DNA from: Pseudodonghicola flavimaris
Lineage (GTDB): Bacteria > Pseudomonadota > Alphaproteobacteria > Rhodobacterales > Rhodobacteraceae
DNA length: 64,000 bases
Direction of reading: 5' to 3'
Assembly: GCF_030164425.1 (NCBI RefSeq)
Contig: NZ_JASNJD010000007.1
Span: 1 to 64,000, forward strand
Part shown: in pieces, positions 23,163 through 34,545 of the stretch
Layout of the letters: each line of letters opens with the position of its first letter
How positions within the stretch are numbered: the stretch's first letter is position 1
Translations under genes and position numbers: made by a program
The notes under the pieces: generated by a model
Databases searched by the model: none
What the model was told of the DNA's origin: nothing
Seen by the model: only the letters and a program-made list of their open reading frames with translations

Positions 23163-23992
23163 AGCTGCCCGCCGCGTTCCGAACCTCCAAGGGTCTGATC
23201 GGCACCGGTCTGGTCATCGCCATCCTGCTGGTGGCGGTGCTTGCCCCGATGCTGATCCCGGCCGACTGGGCCACCAAGATGGACATGCGCGCCCGGCTGT
23301 CGCCACCGACGCTGGCGCATCCGCTGGGCACTGACCAGCTGGGGCGCGATCTGCTCTACCGTGTGCTGCTCGGGACCCAGACGTCGATCTTCATCGCCGG
23401 AGCGGCGGTGCTTATGTCGATCGTGATCGGCCTGCCGCTGGGGCTGATCTCGGGCTATGCCGGCGGCACCACCGACAATGTGCTGATGCGGCTGGTCGAC
23501 ACGCTGCTGAGCTTTCCCGCCCTGCTGCTGGCGCTGACCATCAGCGCGGTGCTGGGGCCGAACCTGCATAACACGGTGATCGCCATCGGCATCGCCTTCA
23601 CCCCGTTCCTGGCGCGCATCATCCGGGGCGAGGCGCTGCGGGTGGCGCAGATGCCCTATGTCGAGGCGGCGCGCACGGCCGGCAATTCCGACAGCCGGCT
23701 GATCCTGCGCCACATCCTGCCTAACATCATGCCGGCGATCATCGTGCAGTCGACGATCAGCCTGGCCTTCGCCATTCTCGCCGAAGCCGGGCTGAGCTTC
23801 CTGGGGCTGGGCACGCAGCCGCCCGATGCCTCCTGGGGGCTGATGATCCAGGCCTCGCGCGATTATCTCGACCGCGCGCCCTGGACCGCGCTGGTGCCCG
23901 GGGCCGCCGTGGCGCTGACGGTGCTGGGCCTGAACATGTTCGGGGATGCGCTGCGCGATGCGCTCGACCCCCGCAGCAAAGGAGCCTCGTGA
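23159..23992 (+). CDS. ABC importer 2, permease (DppC-like)
   Basis: A 277-aa permease with the HPLGTDQLGRDLLYRVLLG signature and EAA loop (YVEAARTAGNSDSRLILRH). It overlaps the upstream permease by 4 nt and shares the A of TGATG with the fused ATPase. Confidence 0.92.
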   Translation: MKLPAAFRTSKGLIGTGLVIAILLVAVLAPMLIPADWATKMDMRARLSPPTLAHPLGTDQLGRDLLYRVLLGTQTSIFIAGAAVLMSIVIGLPLGLISGYAGGTTDNVLMRLVDTLLSFPALLLALTISAVLGPNLHNTVIAIGIAFTPFLARIIRGEALRVAQMPYVEAARTAGNSDSRLILRHILPNIMPAIIVQSTISLAFAILAEAGLSFLGLGTQPPDASWGLMIQASRDYLDRAPWTALVPGAAVALTVLGLNMFGDALRDALDPRSKGAS

Positions 23993-25815
23993 TGCCGGAC
24001 GGGCAAACCCCTCTCGTTTCGATCGAGAACCTGCGGGTCGAATTCCAGGGCGAAGACGGCCCCATCGTCGGCGTCGAAGACGTCAGCTTCTCCATCGCCC
24101 CGGGAGAGACCGTCTGTGTGGTCGGCGAAAGCGGCTCGGGCAAGTCGGTGACCTCGCTGTCGCTGATGCGGCTGGTCGAATTCGGCGGCGGCCGGATCGT
24201 CGACGGACGGCTGGAGTTCGCCCGCGACGGCGGCGTCGTCGATGTCGCTCAGGCCGATCCGGACACCATGCAGGCGATCCGCGGCAATGAGATCGGGATG
24301 ATTTTTCAGGAGCCGATGACCTCGCTCAACCCGGTTTTCACCATCGAACGGCAGATGACCGACGGGCTGCGGATGCATCGCGGCCTGAGCGCCGAGGCCG
24401 CCCGCGCCCGGGCGCTGGAGCTGCTGCGGCAGGTCCGCATTCCCGAACCCGAGCGGCGGCTGAAGCAATATCCGCATGAGCTGTCGGGCGGCATGCGCCA
24501 GCGGGTGGTGATCGCCATGGCGATGGCCTGCGAACCGCGCCTGCTGATCGCCGACGAGCCGACTACCGCGCTCGACGTGACGATCCAGGCGGAAATCCTG
24601 TCGCTGATCAATCGGCTGAAGCGCGAAACCGGCATGGCGGTTCTGTTCATCACCCACGATATGGCGGTGGTCGCCCAGGTCGCCGACCGGGTGGTGGTGA
24701 TGTATCGCGGCAATCTGGTCGAGGAAGGCCCGGTCCAAGAGATCTTCGCCCATCCGAAAGAACCCTATACCCGCGCGCTGCTGGCTGCGGTGCCCCGGCT
24801 GGGCGAGATGCGCGGCAAGAGCGCACCGGAACCGCTGCGCCTGGTCGGAGAGGATGAGCACCGGCTGACGCCCACCGCCCCGGCGGAGCGCGGCCCGCTC
24901 CTCGAAGTATCGCATCTGACGACGCGGTTCCCGGTCAAGGGCGGGCTGTTCCGCCGCACCGTCGCCAATGTCCACGCGGTTGAGGACGTGAGCTTCGTCA
25001 TCAACCGGGGCGAGACGCTGGCGCTGGTGGGCGAATCCGGCTGCGGCAAGTCCAGCTGTGGCCGGTCGATCCTGCGGCTGTCCCAGCCGACCTCCGGCAC
25101 GGTCCTGTTGGACAAGCGCGATATCCTCGGGCTGAACGACCGCGATCTGCGCCGGGCCTGGGCCGATATGCAGATGGTGTTCCAGGATCCCTTCGCTTCG
25201 CTCAACCCCTATATGCGGCTCAGTGAACAGGTGGCCGAACCGCTGACCAACTACGGGCTTGCCCGCGGGTCCGAGGTGCAGGATCGGGTCGCCGGCCTCT
25301 TCGACCGGGTGCAGCTGCCGCGCAGTTTCATGTCGCGGTTCCCGCATGAGCTTTCCGGCGGCCAGCGCCAAAGGGTCGCCATCGCCCGGGCGCTGGCGGT
25401 CCGGCCCAAGCTGATCATCGCCGACGAGGCGGTCAGCGCGCTGGATGTCAGCGTGCAGGCGCAGGTCCTGAACCTGATGATGGAACTGCAGGCGGAGCTC
25501 GATATCTCGTTTCTCTTCATCAGCCACGACATGGCGGTGGTGGAGCGGGTCTCCCATCGTGTCGGGGTGATGTACCGCGGCCGGCTGGTGGAGATCGGCG
25601 ACCGCGCCCAGGTGATGGAATCCCCGCAGCACGCCTATACCCGCAGCCTGCTGAGCGCGGTTCCCATCGCCGATCCGGCGCGCCGGACCATCGGCGAGGA
25701 TATGAATTTCCGCCCGATCCCCTCGCCGGTCTTCCCGATCGGCCATGAGGCCGCCCCCTCCGTCTATGAAGAGGTGGCGCCGGGCCATCTCGTGCTCAGC
25801 ACCGCCTTCGACTGA
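23992..25815 (+). CDS. ABC importer 2, fused double ATP-binding protein (DppD-DppF in one chain)
   Basis: A 607-aa protein with two complete ABC domains. Domain 1 has [24 protein letters not shown] and [11 protein letters not shown]. Domain 2, from about residue 300, has LVGESGCGKS, LSGGQRQRVAIARAL and IIADEAVSALD. One polypeptide replaces the DppD/DppF pair used by importer 1. ATG 23992 is preferred to the overlapping GTG 23989 because AAAGGAG is 7 nt from it. Importer 2 therefore has a complete set of genes. Confidence 0.92.
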   Translation: MPDGQTPLVSIENLRVEFQGEDGPIVGVEDVSFSIAPGETVCVVGESGSGKSVTSLSLMRLVEFGGGRIVDGRLEFARDGGVVDVAQADPDTMQAIRGNEIGMIFQEPMTSLNPVFTIERQMTDGLRMHRGLSAEAARARALELLRQVRIPEPERRLKQYPHELSGGMRQRVVIAMAMACEPRLLIADEPTTALDVTIQAEILSLINRLKRETGMAVLFITHDMAVVAQVADRVVVMYRGNLVEEGPVQEIFAHPKEPYTRALLAAVPRLGEMRGKSAPEPLRLVGEDEHRLTPTAPAERGPLLEVSHLTTRFPVKGGLFRRTVANVHAVEDVSFVINRGETLALVGESGCGKSSCGRSILRLSQPTSGTVLLDKRDILGLNDRDLRRAWADMQMVFQDPFASLNPYMRLSEQVAEPLTNYGLARGSEVQDRVAGLFDRVQLPRSFMSRFPHELSGGQRQRVAIARALAVRPKLIIADEAVSALDVSVQAQVLNLMMELQAELDISFLFISHDMAVVERVSHRVGVMYRGRLVEIGDRAQVMESPQHAYTRSLLSAVPIADPARRTIGEDMNFRPIPSPVFPIGHEAAPSVYEEVAPGHLVLSTAFD

Positions 25816-28131: not shown

Positions 28132-30318
28132 ATGACGCGGCAGCTGGCAGAGGCGACGACGGATCCGCAGGGTCCGGATCAGGGGCGGACGGCGCCGCCG
28201 CGGCGACGGTTCTCCGTCCCGCTGAAACCGGCGGTTCTGCTGGTGGTCATGGCGCTGACGGTGCCGGTTCTGCTGGCGATCATCGACATCAACTACCGCT
28301 CCACCGACCGCGTGGTGCGCGATCACGCCACAGCGCTGGTCGAACGGTTCCGCAGCGAGGCGATCGACGATATCGTCGGAGAATTCGATCATCTGACCGG
28401 CCAGATCGCCACGGCGGCCGAGCTGGGCCATCAGGAACCGGCCTTCTTCGCGGACGACCGCGCGCTCAGCTATCTGTTCCGGGTGCTCGAACACAGCCCC
28501 ACGGTGCTGAACGTCTATGTCGGGCTGCAGGACGGATCGTTCCGGCAGGCCCGGCGGATCGGCGATCCGTCGCAGCCGGTGCTGGGGCAGGTGCCGCCGG
28601 AGGGCACGCGATATGCCTATCGGCTGGTGGAACCGAAGGCGGGTGCGCCGGTTCAGGATCGCTATATCTTCCTCGACGCGCATCAGACCGAACTGGGCGA
28701 GGTCTCCGAACCCAGCCGCTACGATCCGCGCCAGCGCGCCTGGTATCGTCAGGCCGTCGCCGCCGGTGGCACGCTGACCACGGATCCGGAGCTGTTCTGG
28801 GCGCTCGGCCTGGTGGGGTTTTCCGTCGCCGCCCCCTTCGGGCCCGACGATCGGCTGTCCGGCGTGGTGGCGGTGGATGTGACGCTCGACCGGTTTTCAA
28901 ACTATCTGGCGGAGAACCCGCTCAGCCCCAACAGCGTGAGCTATCTTCTGGACGAGAACGGCAACGTTCTGGCGGCCTCGGACGGCACCTCGGTCTATGG
29001 CAGCGCCAATGAGGCGGTGCATCTGCGCCATGTCGCCGATGTCGGCAACCGGCTGGTGGCGCTGGCCTATGCCAACCGCCCGGTGACCGGCAGCGCAGAG
29101 GTCTATCCCTTCTCGCAGGACGGGCGCGACTATCTGGTCGGGCTGACGGATTTCGGCGCCCGCTTCGGCAAGCCCTGGCGGCTCCTGGTGGTGACGCCGC
29201 TGTCGGATTTCACTGCCACGCTCAGCCGCCACAACCGCCAGATGGTGACCTTCGGGCTCTGCGCCGTGGCGGTGCAGCTGTTCCTGATCTACCTGATCGC
29301 CAGCCGGGTGGCGGCGCCGCTGCGCGGGCTGTCGGCCAAGGTCAAGCGTATCCGGTCGCTGGAGCCGGCCGACGATCTGCCGGTGGTCCATTCCTCGGTC
29401 CGGGAAATCGCGGCGCTGTCGCATGCGATTGAAACCCTCGATATCGCGGTGCAGGCCTTCGCCCGCTTCGTGCCGGTGGGTCTGGTGCGCCAGCTTCTGA
29501 CTTCGGAACAGCGGTTGGAGGTCGGCGGTCAGAGCAAATTCCTGACCATCTTCTTCTCCGACATGGAGGGGTTTTCGACTCTGGCCGAAAAGATGGCCTC
29601 CCGCGAACTCCTCGACCGGATTTCCACAATGCTGGAGCTGGTGTCGAAATCGGTGCACCAGGAACAGGGCACCATCGACAAATTCGTCGGCGACGGGGTC
29701 ATGGCCTTCTGGGGCGCGCCGGCGCCGCTGGAGGATCACGCCTGGCATGCCTGTGTCGCGGCGCTGCGTTTGCAGCATGTTCTGGGCCAGCTGAACGAGA
29801 CCTGGCGCGATGCCGATGCGCCGCAGATGCGGCTGCGGGTCGGCATCCATTCCGACGCGGTGCTGGTCGGCAACGTCGGTTCGCGGGAGCGGATGAGCTA
29901 TACCGTGCTGGGCGACGGGGTGAATATCGCGGCGCGGCTGGAGACGCTGAACAAGGAGTATGGCACGCTGATCTGCATCAGCCAGGACACCTTCCGCGAG
30001 GCTGGCGACCGGCTGTGCGTGCGGCCGGTCGATGAGGTGTCGCTGAAGGGGCGGCGGGCCCGGACCACGGTCTATGAGCTTCTCGGGGTCGAGGGGGCGG
30101 AGCCTGAGCTGCGCCCCTCCACCGAAGCGATCGAACTGGCCCGCCTGACCCGCCATGCCTTCGACGCGCTGACCGCCGGCGATCGTGAGGCGGCGCTGGC
30201 GGGGTATCGCGCGGTTCTGGCGCTCCGGCCGCATGACCCGGTGGCGCAGGTGCAGATCGCCCGGCTTTCGACCCGAGACACTTTCCAAATCGCAGGGCTT
30301 TCTCATGAGCAGCATTGA
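28132..30318 (+). CDS. Membrane class III adenylate/guanylate cyclase with periplasmic Cache-type sensor and HAMP-like linker
   Basis: A 728-aa receptor cyclase. TM1 is about residues 33-53; a periplasmic double-Cache-like domain fills 54-370 (WYRQAVAAGG and YLLDENGNVLAASDG are typical); TM2 is about 372-391; a HAMP-like segment follows. The cyclase domain runs from about 465 to 650. Metal-binding Asp477 (FFSDMEGF) and Asp521 (DKFVGDGVMAFWGAP), Lys517, and SYTVLGDGVNIAARLE are all present, so it should be active, probably making cAMP. The Cache fold often binds amino acids or carboxylates. It overlaps the methyltransferase gene by 14 nt. Confidence 0.92.
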   Translation: MTRQLAEATTDPQGPDQGRTAPPRRRFSVPLKPAVLLVVMALTVPVLLAIIDINYRSTDRVVRDHATALVERFRSEAIDDIVGEFDHLTGQIATAAELGHQEPAFFADDRALSYLFRVLEHSPTVLNVYVGLQDGSFRQARRIGDPSQPVLGQVPPEGTRYAYRLVEPKAGAPVQDRYIFLDAHQTELGEVSEPSRYDPRQRAWYRQAVAAGGTLTTDPELFWALGLVGFSVAAPFGPDDRLSGVVAVDVTLDRFSNYLAENPLSPNSVSYLLDENGNVLAASDGTSVYGSANEAVHLRHVADVGNRLVALAYANRPVTGSAEVYPFSQDGRDYLVGLTDFGARFGKPWRLLVVTPLSDFTATLSRHNRQMVTFGLCAVAVQLFLIYLIASRVAAPLRGLSAKVKRIRSLEPADDLPVVHSSVREIAALSHAIETLDIAVQAFARFVPVGLVRQLLTSEQRLEVGGQSKFLTIFFSDMEGFSTLAEKMASRELLDRISTMLELVSKSVHQEQGTIDKFVGDGVMAFWGAPAPLEDHAWHACVAALRLQHVLGQLNETWRDADAPQMRLRVGIHSDAVLVGNVGSRERMSYTVLGDGVNIAARLETLNKEYGTLICISQDTFREAGDRLCVRPVDEVSLKGRRARTTVYELLGVEGAEPELRPSTEAIELARLTRHAFDALTAGDREAALAGYRAVLALRPHDPVAQVQIARLSTRDTFQIAGLSHEQH

Positions 30319-31009
30319 TACCGCCACCGTTTCCGCCTTCCGGCCCAGCATTCACACCTCGGCCGTTCTCCGTCAGGTCCTGTTGCTGGGACCGCGGCTG
30401 CGCGGCGCCCGGGTGCTGGACATCGGCTGCGGCAGCGGCGTGCTGCTGGCCGCAGCCGCCGAGCTCGGCGCGGCAGAGCTCTTCGGCGTCGATGTGGAAC
30501 CGGATGCGCTCGACGAAACCGGTCGGTTGCTGGGCGGCCTCGGTCTCCCGGCGCGGGTCGAGACCGGGCTTGGCCATCTCTATGCGCCGGTCGGGGCACG
30601 GCGGTTCGATCTGGTGCTGGCGAACCTGCCGCATTTCCCGATGCATGCGGCATCGGTCGATGGCCGGCTGCCGACCTGGAGCGATGGGGGCCGCGACGGC
30701 CGCCGCCTGCTGGGGCCGATGATCGCCGGGCTTGGCGAGCATCTGGCGCCGGGCGGCTCTGCCATCGTCGCCCATAACGCCTTCACCGATCTGGACGAAA
30801 CCCGCGCGGTGTTGGCAGCGCAGGGTCTGACGATGGAGATCGCAGACCGGCTGCTGATCCCGGTCGCGGCGGAGAAGCTGATCTGGATGACGCCGGAGAT
30901 CCTGGATCGAGAGCTGGGCCGGACCATCCATCGGATCGGCGATCACGTGTTCACCGAGGTCGCCGTGCTGCGGATCGCGGCGCCGGATGCGGCCGGGGCG
31001 GCGGCTTGA
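30305..31009 (+). CDS. Class I SAM-dependent methyltransferase
   Basis: A 234-aa protein with SAM motif I VLDIGCGSGVLLA and an acidic motif II (FGVDVEPDAL). Instead of the NPPY of nucleic-acid/protein-glutamine methyltransferases it has NLPHF. It therefore resembles the PrmA/HemK-like group but its target is unclear. The start at 30305 lies inside the end of the cyclase gene, and its TGA overlaps the TTG of the next gene, so it is embedded in a tightly coupled operon. A role in modifying a signalling or transport partner is speculation. Confidence 0.8.
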   Translation: MSSIDTATVSAFRPSIHTSAVLRQVLLLGPRLRGARVLDIGCGSGVLLAAAAELGAAELFGVDVEPDALDETGRLLGGLGLPARVETGLGHLYAPVGARRFDLVLANLPHFPMHAASVDGRLPTWSDGGRDGRRLLGPMIAGLGEHLAPGGSAIVAHNAFTDLDETRAVLAAQGLTMEIADRLLIPVAAEKLIWMTPEILDRELGRTIHRIGDHVFTEVAVLRIAAPDAAGAAA

Positions 31010-32652
31010 TCGCGCGTCTCTTTGGCGGCTGTCTCGGCCTGATCCTGACCCTCTGGGCCGCCACTGCCACGGCGGAGACCCCCGAACAGGGGCTGGAGCG
31101 GTTGCTGGACGATCTGCGCGCCGGGATGCCGGCCACCTGCGGCGCGCCGGAACCCGACCGGCTGCTGCAGGTGCTCTGTTCCGGCAAGCTGCGGATCGGC
31201 GTGCGCGACAATTATCCGCTGTTCGCCACGGAGGCGGGCGGCCACCGCACCGGCTACGATATCGAAGTAGCGCGTGCCCTGGCGGCGCATCTGGGGGTCG
31301 TGGCCGAATGGGTGCCGGTGCGCCCCGCCACGCGCATCTCCACCCTTGCCGAGGGCGCCGCCGATGTGGTCATCGCCACCATGGGCCACAATACCCGCCG
31401 TGACACAGAGGCGCGGTTCATCCGGCCGCATTACTACCGGTCCGAGACCATCATTGTCGGCCCGCGCGATGTGGCGGTATCGGATTGGGACGACCTGCGC
31501 AGCCGGACCGTCTGCACCACCATCGGCAATTACGCCAATGCGCATATCGTGTCGCGCGACGTGCGGGTGATGCTGTTCGACAGTGCTAGCCGCCTGCCGG
31601 AGGCCCTGCGCAACGGCACCTGCCGCTTCGTCGCCCATGACGACAGCTTCTTCGCCTCTTATCTGCGCACGGGTCCCATCGCCGAGGCCTTCGACCGCAA
31701 GTTCGGCTTCGACCCGGTGCCCTGGGGCATGGCGGTGGCCGCAACCGGTAGCACCGAACTGGCCCGCGCCCTCGACCTGATCAGCGAGATCATGCACCGG
31801 GACGGCGAATTCCTCGCCCTCGCGCGGCAGAGCGGCATCTTCACCGCCTTTCTGGAGGAGCAGCAGCGGCTGTGGCAGAGCCGGGCCTGTAGCGAGACGC
31901 CGCAAAGCTGCCTGATCCCGGCGCTGAACGCGGTGCCGCCGCCCACTGCCTTCGCCCCGCGGGTGGAACAGGTTCTGGCCTGGACGGAGCGCAACCTGGG
32001 CTTCAGCCCGTCACTGCCGATGCTGATGACCCAGCCGGCCTGGGATCTGTTCCTGGCCGGGATCGTCAATTCGCTGGTGCTGGTCTTCGGGGCGCTGGTG
32101 GCGACGCTGGTGTTCTCCGTCGGTGTCGGGGCGCTGTCGGCGCTGCCGTTCCGGCTGACCCGGGCGCTGTCCTGGCTGATCGTGGTGGCGCTGCAATCCT
32201 CGCCGGTGCTGCTGACGCTGGTCGTGGTCACCGCGGTGGCGCATGTTCTCTTCACCTATTCCTCCGGCGTGGCGCTTGGCGCCGCCATCGTGGCGCTGGG
32301 GCTGATGAACGGGGCCAATGCCGGGCAGGCCATCGGCGAGGCGGCCGAGAGCCTGAGACGCGAACAGGGACTGGGGCGCAGCCTGACGCTGCCGCTGTTC
32401 GGCGCCGCCATGTCGCGGTCGCTGACCCAGATCCTGTCGTTCCTGGTCAATGCCGCCAAGGGCACGCCGGTGGCCAGCTTCACCGGTGCGCCGGAGCTGC
32501 TGGCGGCGCTGACCGATATCACCTCCTTCTCCTCCGGGCGCGGCGATACCTATGCCATCGTGCTGGTCTTCTATCTGGGCGTGGTGTCGCTGGTGGTCTG
32601 GGCCAGCACCCGCACTCGCCGCGCCATCGAACGTCGGAGGGCAGGGGCATGA
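31006..32652 (+). CDS. Fused amino-acid-type solute-binding protein and ABC permease
   Basis: A 548-aa protein starting with TTG (TTGA overlap). It has a Sec-type signal (LFGGCLGLILTLWAATATAE), then a family 3 binding domain at about residues 55-290 (LRIGVRDNYPLF, GYDIEVARALAAHLG). The ligand-gripping Arg of amino-acid binders is apparent (PATRISTLAEGAADVVIA), and so is the late Asp (AHDDSFFAS). From about residue 340 a HisM/GlnP-type permease domain follows (NSLVLVFGALVATL, ESLRREQGLGRSLTLPLFG, YAIVLVFYLGVVSL). Such receptor-permease fusions are known in amino-acid ABC systems. No ATPase gene is adjacent. Confidence 0.88.
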   Translation: MIARLFGGCLGLILTLWAATATAETPEQGLERLLDDLRAGMPATCGAPEPDRLLQVLCSGKLRIGVRDNYPLFATEAGGHRTGYDIEVARALAAHLGVVAEWVPVRPATRISTLAEGAADVVIATMGHNTRRDTEARFIRPHYYRSETIIVGPRDVAVSDWDDLRSRTVCTTIGNYANAHIVSRDVRVMLFDSASRLPEALRNGTCRFVAHDDSFFASYLRTGPIAEAFDRKFGFDPVPWGMAVAATGSTELARALDLISEIMHRDGEFLALARQSGIFTAFLEEQQRLWQSRACSETPQSCLIPALNAVPPPTAFAPRVEQVLAWTERNLGFSPSLPMLMTQPAWDLFLAGIVNSLVLVFGALVATLVFSVGVGALSALPFRLTRALSWLIVVALQSSPVLLTLVVVTAVAHVLFTYSSGVALGAAIVALGLMNGANAGQAIGEAAESLRREQGLGRSLTLPLFGAAMSRSLTQILSFLVNAAKGTPVASFTGAPELLAALTDITSFSSGRGDTYAIVLVFYLGVVSLVVWASTRTRRAIERRRAGA

Positions 32653-33293
32653 GCATGATCGCCGAGCTGCTGCAGTCGGGCTATCCGCGCGATCTGGCCA
32701 GCGCCATGGTGGTGAATTTTCGCATCGCCGGCCTGGCGCTGGCGATGGGGCTGGCCCTGGGGCTGCCGCTGGCCCTGGCCCGTGCCGGGGGGCGGGCCTG
32801 GCGCCATGCGGTGGCGCCGGTTCTGGGGCTGATGCGGGCGGCGCCGACCTTCGTGGTGATGTTCTATCTGCTGAATGTGGTGCCGCGCGATTTCAGCCTG
32901 GGCGGGGTGTCGCTGGCGCCGTCGGGGCCGATGATCGTGGCGCTGTCGCTGGTGCCCTATGCGGCGGCCTATGCGGCCGACAATGGCGGCGAGGCGCTGC
33001 GGAGCCTGCGGCGCGGCTCGCTCGACGGGGCGCTGCTCTTCGTTCCCAATATCGTGCGAGCCTTCTTCGTACTGGTGATGTCCTCCAGTACCGGCGCCGC
33101 CATCGGCGTGAACGAGGGGGTGGCTGTCGTCCTGCGTGAGGCCGACCGCTGGAACACGCTTGGCGACAAGCTGATCGTCTTCGCCATTGGCGTGATCGCC
33201 TTCGGCCTGGTGTTCCAGTCCGGTTTCGCGCTGATGCGGCTGGCGGTGGCCCGCCTGGGGCGGCGTCACCGCGCCCGGATCCGCTCGGGCTGA
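32649..33293 (+). CDS. Amino-acid-type ABC permease (second channel subunit)
   Basis: A 214-aa HisM/GlnP-type membrane protein with about five helices and a coupling loop around GGEALRSLRRGSLDGALLF. It is coupled by ATGA to the fused receptor-permease and presumably pairs with it. It ends 16 bp before the convergent histidine kinase gene, so the operon stops without an ATP-binding subunit. Confidence 0.88.
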   Translation: MSMIAELLQSGYPRDLASAMVVNFRIAGLALAMGLALGLPLALARAGGRAWRHAVAPVLGLMRAAPTFVVMFYLLNVVPRDFSLGGVSLAPSGPMIVALSLVPYAAAYAADNGGEALRSLRRGSLDGALLFVPNIVRAFFVLVMSSSTGAAIGVNEGVAVVLREADRWNTLGDKLIVFAIGVIAFGLVFQSGFALMRLAVARLGRRHRARIRSG

Positions 33294-33309: not shown

Positions 33310-34545
33310 TCAGCTGTCGCCGGCTGGACGGGGCGGAAAGCGCAGAGCCACCTCGGCGCGGTCCTCCGCCACCGACATCTGCAGGTCGATGCCGTTCTGC
33401 CGCGCGATGGTCTCGACTATGGTGAGGCCCAGCCCGGCGCCGGCGGAGTCGGGGGACTTGTCGAACCGGCCCGGCCTGAGCCGGGCACCCGGCGCCACCG
33501 GGTTGGTGATGCTCAGCACCGGCCCCGGGCGCAGCCGCACCGACACCAGACCGGTGCCATGCGCCTCGGCGTTGCGCAGCAGATTCCCCAGCAGGATCGC
33601 CAGCGCGTCCGGGTCGATGGCGACCCACGCGGTCTCCAGATCGCCGTCGTCGAAGCGGATCCGGTCGCGGGGCAGGTCGCGGATCAGCAGCCGCAGTACG
33701 GCCACCAGATCGGCGCGGGAGGCGGCATCGCCGATCCCGGCCTCGGCGCGCGACAGCTGCAACAGGCGTTCCACGGTATCGCCCAGCCGGCTCAGCGCCC
33801 GGGCCATCTGGGCCGCGGATTCCGGCCCGGCGGTGCCGGCGGCGATCAGCTGCGCCTGCGCCGAGGCGGCGGCAATCGGTGTGCGCAGCTCATGCGCGGC
33901 ATGGCCGGCAAAGGCGCGCTCGGCACTCAGCAGGGTCTCGATCCGCGCCAGATAGGCATTGAAGGCCTCCGGCACCGGGGCCAGTTCGCGCGGCAGATCC
34001 GCAGCCGAAATCGGTGACAGATCGCGGGCATCCCGGTCGCCGACCCGGCGCGCCAGATCCTGCGCCGGGGCCAGCCCGCGGGCGATGGTGCCGCGCAGGA
34101 TGAACAGGACCAGCGCCAGGAACGGCAGCATCAGCCACAGGAAGGCGCGGGCGATCTCCATCATCTCCTCGCGCCGCCAGGCCTCGCTCTGGCCCAGCTC
34201 CAGGATCACGCCGTCGGCGGGGGCGGATTGGCGCATCACATGCCAGCCGCCGCCCTCCCAATGTCCGTCGGCAGCAAGGGGGGGCCAGTCGGCGGCGCGG
34301 GTCTCGACCCCGTCGCGGATCACCCGCACGGCTTCCGCGGAATTGAGCGGCAGGGTCTCGGCCGGGCCGGTGCGGACCATCTCCAGCGCCAGCAGGCTCT
34401 GGCTTTCCAGTGTCGCATCCAGAAGCTCGTTGACCTCGTGATTGATGACGGCCAGCGCCAGGCCGAATGCGATGACCCAGCCGACGGCCACCGCCAGCGC
34501 CACGCGAACCGTAACCCGCCCGCTGAGGGACCAGCGCCGGGTCAT
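33310..34545 (-). CDS. Sensor histidine kinase (QseC/PmrB-like)
   Basis: A 411-aa HK with TM1 at about residues 15-33, a periplasmic loop to about 133, TM2 at about 135-150, a HAMP segment, phospho-acceptor His218 (AAHELRTPIA), and an ATPase domain with an N-box (GNLLRNAEAHG) and G-box (GAGLGLTIVETI). It overlaps the response regulator stop by ATGA. It probably senses a periplasmic or membrane signal and phosphorylates its partner. Confidence 0.92.
   Translation of the reverse strand: MTRRWSLSGRVTVRVALAVAVGWVIAFGLALAVINHEVNELLDATLESQSLLALEMVRTGPAETLPLNSAEAVRVIRDGVETRAADWPPLAADGHWEGGGWHVMRQSAPADGVILELGQSEAWRREEMMEIARAFLWLMLPFLALVLFILRGTIARGLAPAQDLARRVGDRDARDLSPISAADLPRELAPVPEAFNAYLARIETLLSAERAFAGHAAHELRTPIAAASAQAQLIAAGTAGPESAAQMARALSRLGDTVERLLQLSRAEAGIGDAASRADLVAVLRLLIRDLPRDRIRFDDGDLETAWVAIDPDALAILLGNLLRNAEAHGTGLVSVRLRPGPVLSITNPVAPGARLRPGRFDKSPDSAGAGLGLTIVETIARQNGIDLQMSVAEDRAEVALRFPPRPAGDS

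Follow-up and report, generated by a model that had tools for sequence, protein, structure and literature searches.

A cyclase operon in Pseudodonghicola flavimaris with an importer-like permease pair lacking the ATPase docking loop: a putative ATP-free amino acid receptor

Genes and domains of the operon

The DNA analyzed here (the window, 64,000 nucleotides of a P. flavimaris contig) contains four genes on one strand, designated CYC, MT, SBPP and PERM2 (Table 1), which are joined by overlaps of 14 nt, TTGA and ATGA, all located where a preliminary description had put them. The first of these overlaps depends on taking MT from the ATG at 30305, the mechanically defined reading frame extending to a GTG at 30185. 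SBPP starts with the TTG of the second, and from this start its N-terminus is hydrophobic and signal-peptide-like. On the opposite strand, the end of the neighboring convergent gene is at 33310, 16 bp from PERM2, also as described before. A scan for promoters and terminators gave no signal clearly exceeding chance.

Table 1. Positions of the genes and sequence features in the window.
Feature	Position	Strand	Description
CYC	28132..30318	+	membrane-bound class III nucleotidyl cyclase, 728 aa
dCache_1 sensor domain of CYC (part)	28702..29139	+	residues 191-336; Pfam, PctB/PctA alignment
Catalytic domain of CYC	29542..30075	+	residues 471-648; D477, K517, D521, T591, N598, R602
MT	30305..31009	+	HemK/PrmC-like SAM methyltransferase, NLPHF replacing NPPY, 234 aa
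SBPP	31006..32652	+	signal peptide, family 3 amino acid-binding domain and permease-type membrane domain, 548 aa
SBP_bac_3 domain of SBPP	31189..31827	+	residues 62-274
Permease-type membrane domain of SBPP	32032..32649	+	residues 343-548; AF2 helices, hhalign
Former EAA coupling loop of SBPP	32326..32400	+	~residues 441-465; shortened, without motif
PERM2	32649..33293	+	second permease homologue, 214 aa
20-residue deletion in PERM2	33033..33038	+	between L129 and L130, where the canonical EAA coupling loop sits

CYC has transmembrane segments at approximately residues 35-53 and 371-389 with a dCache domain between them, followed by a linker that is HAMP-like by eye and by the catalytic domain. 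In Pfam, dCache_1 (PF02743) reaches 40.8 bits, slightly below its cut-off of 45, and Guanylate_cyc (PF00211) 66.4 bits against a cut-off of 21.9. Residue conservation was counted over 33 rows, made up of the window and those 32 loci whose genes are complete, with L020, L024, and L029 set aside. The metal-binding D477 and D521, the K517/T591 pair, N598, and R602 are invariant in all of them, and we take these to be the catalytic set of class III cyclases (two metal Asp, a Lys/Thr pair for the base, Asn and Arg), the K/T pair presumably being of the ATP type (class IIIb). Judged by these residues, CYC looks like a IIIb-like adenylyl cyclase able to make cyclic AMP, and the earlier reading of a Cache-domain class III cyclase with intact catalytic residues is borne out. 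In the sensor, Y197, R202, W204, Y205, and D249 are likewise invariant (33/33), and five of the six PctA ligand positions compared are present (Y121, R126, W128, Y129, Y144, and D173 in PctA, as given in the available text of PMC10104139), the position of PctA Y144 being E220 in the CYC of the window. With a periplasmic sensor of its own, CYC could function alone.

MT indeed reads NLPHF in place of NPPY, the motif of HemK/PrmC glutamine methyltransferases that is absent from this protein, and it scores below the equivalog cut-offs. The N, L, P, and F of the motif are invariant across the 33 rows, and H is found in 32 (Q in L005).

The only Pfam match of SBPP is SBP_bac_3 (PF00497, 71.4 bits), a domain found in all 27 members. 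R132 and D213 align with an Arg and an Asp of the amino acid-binding AncQR, and R132, D133, D212, and D213 do not vary in any of the 33 rows. Its membrane domain matches canonical PAAT (polar amino acid) permeases in hhalign (98.4%, E 1e-14) and PERM2 far more weakly (58.6%, E 1e-4), whereas Pfam BPD_transp_1 gave no match to it in any of the 27 members at an E-value of 1. When the complete SBPP model was compared by fold, the 50 matches listed showed periplasmic binding protein folds, and the assignment of the membrane domain therefore rests on sequence profiles. A family 3 binding protein fused to a permease, as previously proposed, agrees with both the PF00497 domain and the hhalign result. 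The closest relative of SBPP in the same genome, C2 (42% over residues 27-312), was considered as a spare transporter and rejected, since it consists of a binding domain, NMT1 and Gly_transporter without a permease.

Coupling loop and importer ATPases

PERM2 has no Pfam match at E 0.01, BPD_transp_1 being sub-threshold (E 0.023, 14.9 bits). It resembles the permease 4yms_D in fold comparison (Z 19.4, rmsd 3.1, 193 residues aligned) and in HMMER (E 1.1e-4), and canonical permeases in hhalign (98.4%). PERM2 and the membrane domain of SBPP are thus both homologous to the permeases of PAAT-type ABC importers and have a type I fold.

In type I importers, the EAA coupling loop is the docking site of the nucleotide-binding domain (NBD). 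This loop, which PAAT-type importers need for ATPase docking, is deleted in PERM2, and its motif is gone in SBPP. The HMMER alignment of PERM2 with 4yms_D is interrupted at the deletion site (4yms_D 122 to 145), and most canonical permeases among the matches listed align to the PERM2 profile only until position ~126-129 of 203. The corresponding segment of PERM2 is 66-69 aa long in every one of the 37 loop-less rows and 89-99 aa in all 14 loop-bearing ones, and the deletion is near-constant in length in loop-less relatives down to 28-43% identity. In SBPP the segment comprises 82 aa in the window, 74-90 in 20 loop-less rows and 90-97 in eight canonical permeases. A tree of 51 permeases places the loss of the loop on one branch (support 82/99). 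Because the loop was lost once, loop state and ATPase state have no independent replication, and the independent-pairs test of one against the other comprises a single pair, the bootstrap of the loss branch being 82.

When the flanks of 44 homologous loci were scanned for ATPase motifs and searched by tblastn using two ATPases of the Opp type, no PAAT-type importer ATPase was detected at any locus, the flanks available exceeding 7 kb downstream in only 33 of the loci and ending within 1.5 kb of PERM2 in several; the absence of an adjoining ATP-binding subunit gene, reported before for the window, was confirmed within the same scope. Likewise, the flanks examined for the 37 loop-less rows contained none. 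All 14 loop-bearing rows have a nearby ATPase, in 13 of them within ~2 kb and in L145 at a distance of ~9 kb within one contig. It is GlnQ-like in both loci typed (L144 and L148), and in L144 it lies on the strand opposite to the permease pair. An ATPase gene that is regularly adjacent in close homologues, which would have spoken against the preliminary description, was thus not found; PAAT ATPases occur only beside the more distant, loop-bearing relatives.

Several other ATPases in the flanks were considered and rejected, none being PAAT-type judging from its best family matches. The gene directly downstream of PERM2 in L025, cut by the contig end, encodes an exporter with membrane and ATPase parts (ABC_membrane; best match MsbA). 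A dipeptide-type double ATPase (oligo_HPY) lies divergently beside the cyclase in L010, 3.6 kb from SBPP; L031 has an ATPase nearest to the nitrate/taurine type 3.5 kb downstream, L032 an exporter (ABC_membrane) at 5.4 kb, L037 a DrrA/RbbA-like protein at 6.2 kb, L141 a PhnT/PotA-like one on the other strand ~2.5 kb past the methyltransferase, and L047 an Opp-type match 3.8 kb past the cyclase. In the window, the ATPase gene closest to SBPP (23989-25815) encodes two ATPases and lies 5.2 kb upstream; further ones lie 6.6 kb downstream and farther upstream. Typing with NCBIfam covered the ATPases other than those of the window, L032, and L047.

The genome as a whole has at least 150 ABC_tran matches (the best 150 of 263 candidates, all matching). 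With the ATPase of a loop-bearing relative as PAAT query, two ATPases of the genome proved more than 50% identical among the best 150 of 190 candidates, and both adjoin their own permeases in separate importer operons. The orphan HisP/GlnQ-type ATPase for which a search had been suggested was absent from the best 150 of 190 candidates of the PAAT search and the best 150 of 263 of the ABC_tran search.

Gene order and output enzymes in relatives

Homologous loci were found via SBPP; of 46 initially collected, L049 and L050 were dropped (match over 53 residues only), and L023 and L034, cut by contig ends, were counted as neither order. The order CYC-MT-SBPP-PERM2 on a single strand is present in 33 of the 44 loci, which do not represent 33 independent events because some of the Reyranella loci hardly differ from each other and the locus of genome G138 (L081) is identical with L005. 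It spans several alphaproteobacterial orders and is kept down to ~50% identity across Rhodobacteraceae, Rhizobiaceae, Reyranella, and other alphaproteobacteria, so that an order not conserved in relatives, named beforehand as a result that would contradict the proposal, was not observed. The cyclase is incomplete in three of the 33 (L020, at a contig end; L024, frame broken; L029, C-terminal part only), L024 and L029 being metagenome assemblies. SBPP and PERM2 overlap by 4 nt in 35 of 43 measurable loci (starts chosen by script), and the CYC/MT junction is less conserved, with gaps from -20 to +74. Over the 33 rows, the pairwise distances obtained with each of the four proteins show correlations of 0.89-0.96, kinship being ignored. 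In a sample of 385 genomes of the class, close PERM2 (E < 1e-70) and close full-length CYC (E < 1e-180) occur in an identical set of seven genomes, neither being present in any other, among the first-look candidates scored, whose number per genome was capped, and in a family sample of 198 genomes close SBPP occurs in three, including the window's own. The conserved co-occurrence of the four genes that had been put forward as a check was therefore found, and the view that they belong together gains from both conserved order and co-occurrence; the translational coupling from which it had been drawn is, by itself, weaker support.

Seven of the 44 loci lack the cyclase. One of them (L036, genome G314) carries a cyclase on another contig; for the other six, no full-length CYC relative was detected in the assemblies searched, five being without a match at E 1e-20 and G582 having a match to the catalytic domain only (1e-39). 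In L038 and L047 the cyclase is convergent downstream.

Loop-less relatives retain the pair while the output enzyme varies. In clade A, the pairs adjoin a dCache class III cyclase. A SpoIIE phosphatase stands beside the loop-less pair in L141, L142, and L143 (Pfam SpoIIE and HAMP) and in L146 (tblastn), with STAS genes close to L142 and L146, and in L143, a single example, an RsbW-like HATPase_c_2 domain is fused to the C-terminus of PERM2 (E 7e-21). L101 has a SAM-cyclase-AAA gene upstream, and the usual methyltransferase is not directly upstream in L101, L143, and L180. L144, which is loop-bearing and has an ATPase, lies beside a SpoIIE/RsbW/STAS set, and relatives of this type are a possible living intermediate between importer and receptor.

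Possible function and comparison with known systems

The loss of the loop within a conserved cyclase gene set suggests an uptake machine turned sensor. With a probability of roughly 0.6, SBPP and PERM2 constitute an ATP-free amino acid receptor derived from a PAAT importer that feeds the cyclase, a reading for which we infer the ligand class, the receptor function, the contact with CYC, the cyclic AMP product and the role of the methyltransferase. The two proteins would form a heterodimeric membrane receptor, whose family 3 binding domain would bind a periplasmic ligand resembling an amino acid and relay its open or closed state to both permease-type membrane domains. With the EAA coupling loop missing from PERM2 and degenerate in SBPP, an ATPase would find no place to dock, and the membrane pair may therefore be a ligand-driven conformational switch rather than a pump. 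Its partner here would be CYC, the putative membrane-bound adenylyl cyclase, which carries its own dCache sensor, so that the module would tune cyclic AMP output to a periplasmic ligand; in the sister branch, the pair would feed partner-switch signaling. The probable role of MT, and the least certain step, is to modify some part of the complex or the signal it gives. Among the three options formerly offered for the transporter, a sensor fits best.

It is unlikely that the pair is instead an ATP-independent channel or facilitator, through which a loaded binding domain would send solute down its gradient while CYC senses amino acids via its own dCache, for which it has most of the PctA ligand positions compared, and is merely co-regulated. 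The permease fold is complete except for the loop, passive transport may be compatible with the loss of ATPase docking, and the binding domain of C2 is fused to Gly_transporter (TRIC-type), presumably an ATP-free family; but the recurrent pairing of loop-less pairs with varied families of signaling enzymes and the PERM2/RsbW-like fusion in L143 are left unexplained. We consider it improbable that the four genes have separate jobs and owe their proximity merely to joint transfer or common regulation: the patchy distribution within the family agrees with such hitch-hiking, whereas the order kept to ~50% identity across Alphaproteobacteria, the correlated distances (kinship ignored) and the frequent 4-nt overlap of SBPP and PERM2 argue against it. 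There is very little chance that a normal importer draws on an ATPase encoded elsewhere. The available text of PMC7658222 describes type I importers with multitask NBDs, and the genome is rich in ABC_tran matches, but both permeases lack an intact docking loop, the two PAAT-type ATPases found belong to their own operons, and the closest loop-bearing relatives have their ATPase near the pair; the two remaining earlier options, a borrowed ATPase and solute movement with a remote partner, are therefore disfavored, both of them also by the lack of an orphan PAAT ATPase among the candidates scored. Decay of an importer is hardly credible: a permease without a motor might be a relic, and L024 has a broken cyclase frame and L029 only part of the cyclase, but SBPP and PERM2 frames are open in some 40 loci, the four binding-domain residues are invariant, and the deletion is clean and near-constant in length in distant relatives.

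A wider proposal, tentative and with slightly less than even chances, is that this is a new transmembrane receptor family. ABC importers would have lost ATPase and docking loop in a single event and would since have become widespread in the Pseudomonadota, providing interchangeable ligand input to cAMP cyclases, to SpoIIE/RsbW partner switches, and possibly to the activation of contractile injection systems (eCIS, T6SS). If true, an ABC importer would have been converted into a pure receptor, and it could be asked by experiment which part of the conformational change of binding protein and permease signals without ATP, and how the partner enzyme is reached. A likely ligand-controlled input would also be named for one alphaproteobacterial adenylyl cyclase among the many without an assigned input.

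The operon resembles PAAT importers (ArtQN 4yms, HisQMP, and GlnPQ) in having a family 3 binding protein and two permeases of type I fold, GlnPQ also sharing the fusion of binding protein and permease, and differs from them in the absence of an ATPase gene, the deleted EAA loop and the cyclase neighbor. Transport machinery is used for sensing in UhpC and yeast Snf3/Rgt2, transporter-derived sensors of the MFS, and in BceAB-BceS, a transporter-sensor complex that has kept its ATPase, unlike the ABC-derived, ATPase-less SBPP and PERM2. RsbU/RsbW/STAS proteins, which act by partner switching, are the output enzymes in the sister branch of the pair and are absent from the operon of the window; we know of no ABC-derived receptor for them. 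CyaD1, CyaD2, and CyaK of Sinorhizobium meliloti are, in the accessible part of their description, membrane adenylyl cyclases of an alphaproteobacterium that also need a separate envelope protein, but they have a CHASE2 domain and an outer-membrane-associated partner (reportedly NsrA) and, unlike the CYC module, no importer relative. The accessible part of the open-licence PMC literature contains no description of an ATPase-less ABC-derived receptor. A periplasmic binding protein feeding a signaling enzyme is also found in the SBP-stimulated receptors, which include chemoreceptors, sensor kinases, diguanylate cyclases/phosphodiesterases, and Ser/Thr kinases, adenylyl cyclases not being among them in the available text (PMC9602780). 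SBPP differs from these in that its binding protein is joined to an importer-type membrane pair.

Gene content and conservation of the operon

The membrane-bound class III cyclase (CYC), the methyltransferase (MT), the binding protein fused to a permease domain (SBPP) and the second permease (PERM2) of this 5.31-Mb genome are listed below with the related loci. Their places, their overlaps (14 nt for CYC/MT, and 4 nt each for MT/SBPP and SBPP/PERM2) and the convergent neighbour 16 bp beyond PERM2 are all as the preliminary description had stated, and its observation of one four-gene operon is confirmed.

Coordinates of the operon genes and of features at homologous loci (L-numbers)
Feature	Location	Position	Strand	Content
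CYC	Window	28132-30318		Two membrane segments flanking a dCache domain; class III catalytic domain
MT	Window	30305-31009		HemK-like methyltransferase, NLPHF motif
SBPP	Window	31006-32652		Signal peptide, family 3 binding domain, membrane domain
PERM2	Window	32649-33293		Second permease, without a Pfam family above cut-off
Possible effector	L038	5768-6856		cNMP_binding and Rce1-like (CAAX protease) protein
Cyclase-less locus	L039	833-6035		
Cyclase-less locus	L040	4338-10120		
SBPP paralogue	L080 (this genome, contig C2)	6597-9185	-	SBP_bac_3, NMT1 and Gly_transporter (TRIC-type)
Loop-less pair	L100	1-10828		
Fused second permease	L143	7906-9060		
Loop-bearing locus	L144	5491-13883		
Loop-less pair	L180	5448-16001		

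A search with SBPP returned 46 loci, of which two matching over 53 residues only were set aside. Conservation of the order in relatives had been proposed as a check, and CYC-MT-SBPP-PERM2 was found on one strand in this order in 33 of the 44 loci counted (three with an incomplete cyclase). In two more (L038 and L047) MT-SBPP-PERM2 is followed by a cyclase gene in convergent orientation, seven loci have these three genes and lack a cyclase, and a contig end truncates the remaining two. SBPP and PERM2 overlap by 4 nt at 35 of 43 measurable junctions. One cyclase-less locus, L036, is contig C103 of genome G314, as judged by length and hit positions, and the cyclase of that genome sits on another contig. 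In the other six genomes no full-length relative of CYC was found: five are without a match at E 1e-20, and G582 has a match to the catalytic domain only (E 1e-39). Next to the three genes in the cyclase-less L039 and L040, both of the window's branch, lie PBP_like_2 and NMT1_3 (TAXI-type) genes. The protein tabulated for L038 lies near a cyclase-bearing locus and is possibly a cAMP effector.

CYC could work alone. PERM2 of the window's kind (E < 1e-70) and CYC of the window's kind (E < 1e-180, two candidates scored per genome) occur in the identical 7 of 385 genomes of the class, the next cyclase matches being a second copy in one of these (E 3e-146) and then one at E 5e-118. Since a close SBPP was found in only 3 of 198 genomes sampled from the window's own family, this genome included, the module has a sparse and patchy distribution in that family.

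Loss of the docking loop and probable loss of the ATPase

The EAA loop is the established docking place of the ATPase in type I importers. The structure model of PERM2 (pLDDT 86.6) has its closest match, with Z 19.4 over 193 residues, in 4yms_D, a permease chain from an ABC transporter for amino acids. When PERM2 sequences were aligned with permeases of ordinary polar amino acid (PAAT) importers, including those of this genome, the EAA-holding stretch comprised 67-69 residues in the window and 19 other loop-less rows, and at least 88 in 12 loop-bearing rows; in PERM2, 20 residues are gone at a single place, between L129 and L130. Three further views agree with this loss: when HMMER aligns the family profile to 4yms_D, the alignment breaks at residue 122 and picks up at 145; canonical permeases from 385 genomes, among the matches listed, mostly cover only positions ~10 to 126-129 of the 203 in the PERM2 profile; and profile-profile alignment places large gaps at the loop site. 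The SBPP membrane domain is a permease homologue (98.4%, E 1e-14) despite a shortened and variable loop (74-90 residues in 20 rows, as compared with 90-97 in eight canonical permeases, 91 in six of them) from which the EAA motif is absent. The docking place of the ATPase is lost from both permeases. A passive flux through SBPP/PERM2 is possible.

In a tree of 51 permeases built with loop columns excluded, all 37 loop-less rows fall on one side of one branch (support 82/99) nested among importers having an ATPase, and 84% of 200 bootstrap trees imply a single loop change. An ATPase lies near every one of the 14 loop-bearing rows (four rows of this genome, two each of L103 and L104, and those of L147, L148, L181, L182, L144 and L145), at 1.3 kb on the opposite strand in L144 and about 9 kb off on the same contig in L145; the L144 and L148 ATPases resemble GlnQ most. 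No PAAT-type ATPase was found within the flanks examined of the 37 loop-less rows, where other ABC ATPases are of other types, where typed. This suggests that the ATPase went together with the loop, and it speaks against the alternative that the ATPase had simply moved in this genome. Because the loop loss is one event, the association between loop and ATPase is unreplicated evidence.

Putative signalling partners and ligand

In the window's branch, the partner of the loop-less pair is CYC. Downstream of the pair in L141, L142, L143 and L146 stands a gene for a SpoIIE phosphatase-domain protein of ~630-660 residues (the domain was called by Pfam, along with HAMP, in L141, L142 and L143, and by tblastn in L146), and L142 and L146 also have STAS genes in their surroundings. 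The second permease of L143 is in one reading frame with an RsbW-like HATPase_c_2 domain (E 7e-21), ahead of the phosphatase gene, and L101 has a SAM-cyclase-AAA gene upstream of the pair. Since the signalling partners change and fusion to one occurs, the pair reads, from gene context, as an input module for signalling enzymes. L144 has kept both loop and ATPase, with SpoIIE, HATPase_c_2, STAS and methyltransferase genes already in its neighbourhood, and is plausibly an evolutionary intermediate.

The HemK-like methyltransferase with NLPHF accompanies the pair in the cyclase branch. In the other branch, a dissimilar methyltransferase is found with it in L100, L102, L141, L142, L144 and L179, and none lies directly upstream of it in L101, L143 and L180; one guess is that the enzyme methylates the receptor. 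Two loop-less pairs have genes of contractile injection systems close by: in L100 these are tail tube, CIS_tube, sheath and eCIS_core, and in L180 the start of a T6SS VipA gene. An NMT1_3 protein is also present in L179.

SBPP R132 and D213 are invariant in 33 of 33 rows and align with the Arg and Asp of the amino acid-binding AncQR, residues which presumably contact the carboxylate and amino group of the ligand. In the dCache domain of CYC, five of six checked positions of the amino acid-binding PctA are present, with Glu at the place of Y144. The likely ligand is an amino acid or an amino acid derivative. CYC has the full set of catalytic residues, and we take their Lys/Thr pair to suggest ATP as substrate. 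The closest paralogue of the SBPP binding domain in this genome (L080) is one more binding domain joined to a membrane domain, of a different kind than that of SBPP.

Comparison with known systems

We favour, with a probability of roughly 0.6, the reading that SBPP and PERM2 constitute an importer-derived, ATP-free receptor working with an adenylyl cyclase. The interpretation in the preliminary description is partly supported: among its options (a sensor, a borrowed ATPase or a remote partner), the sensor gains support. A search of open-licence PMC literature found no description of an ATP-free importer-derived receptor. We could place the architecture in no described family, and it would represent transporter-derived sensing in a new variant.
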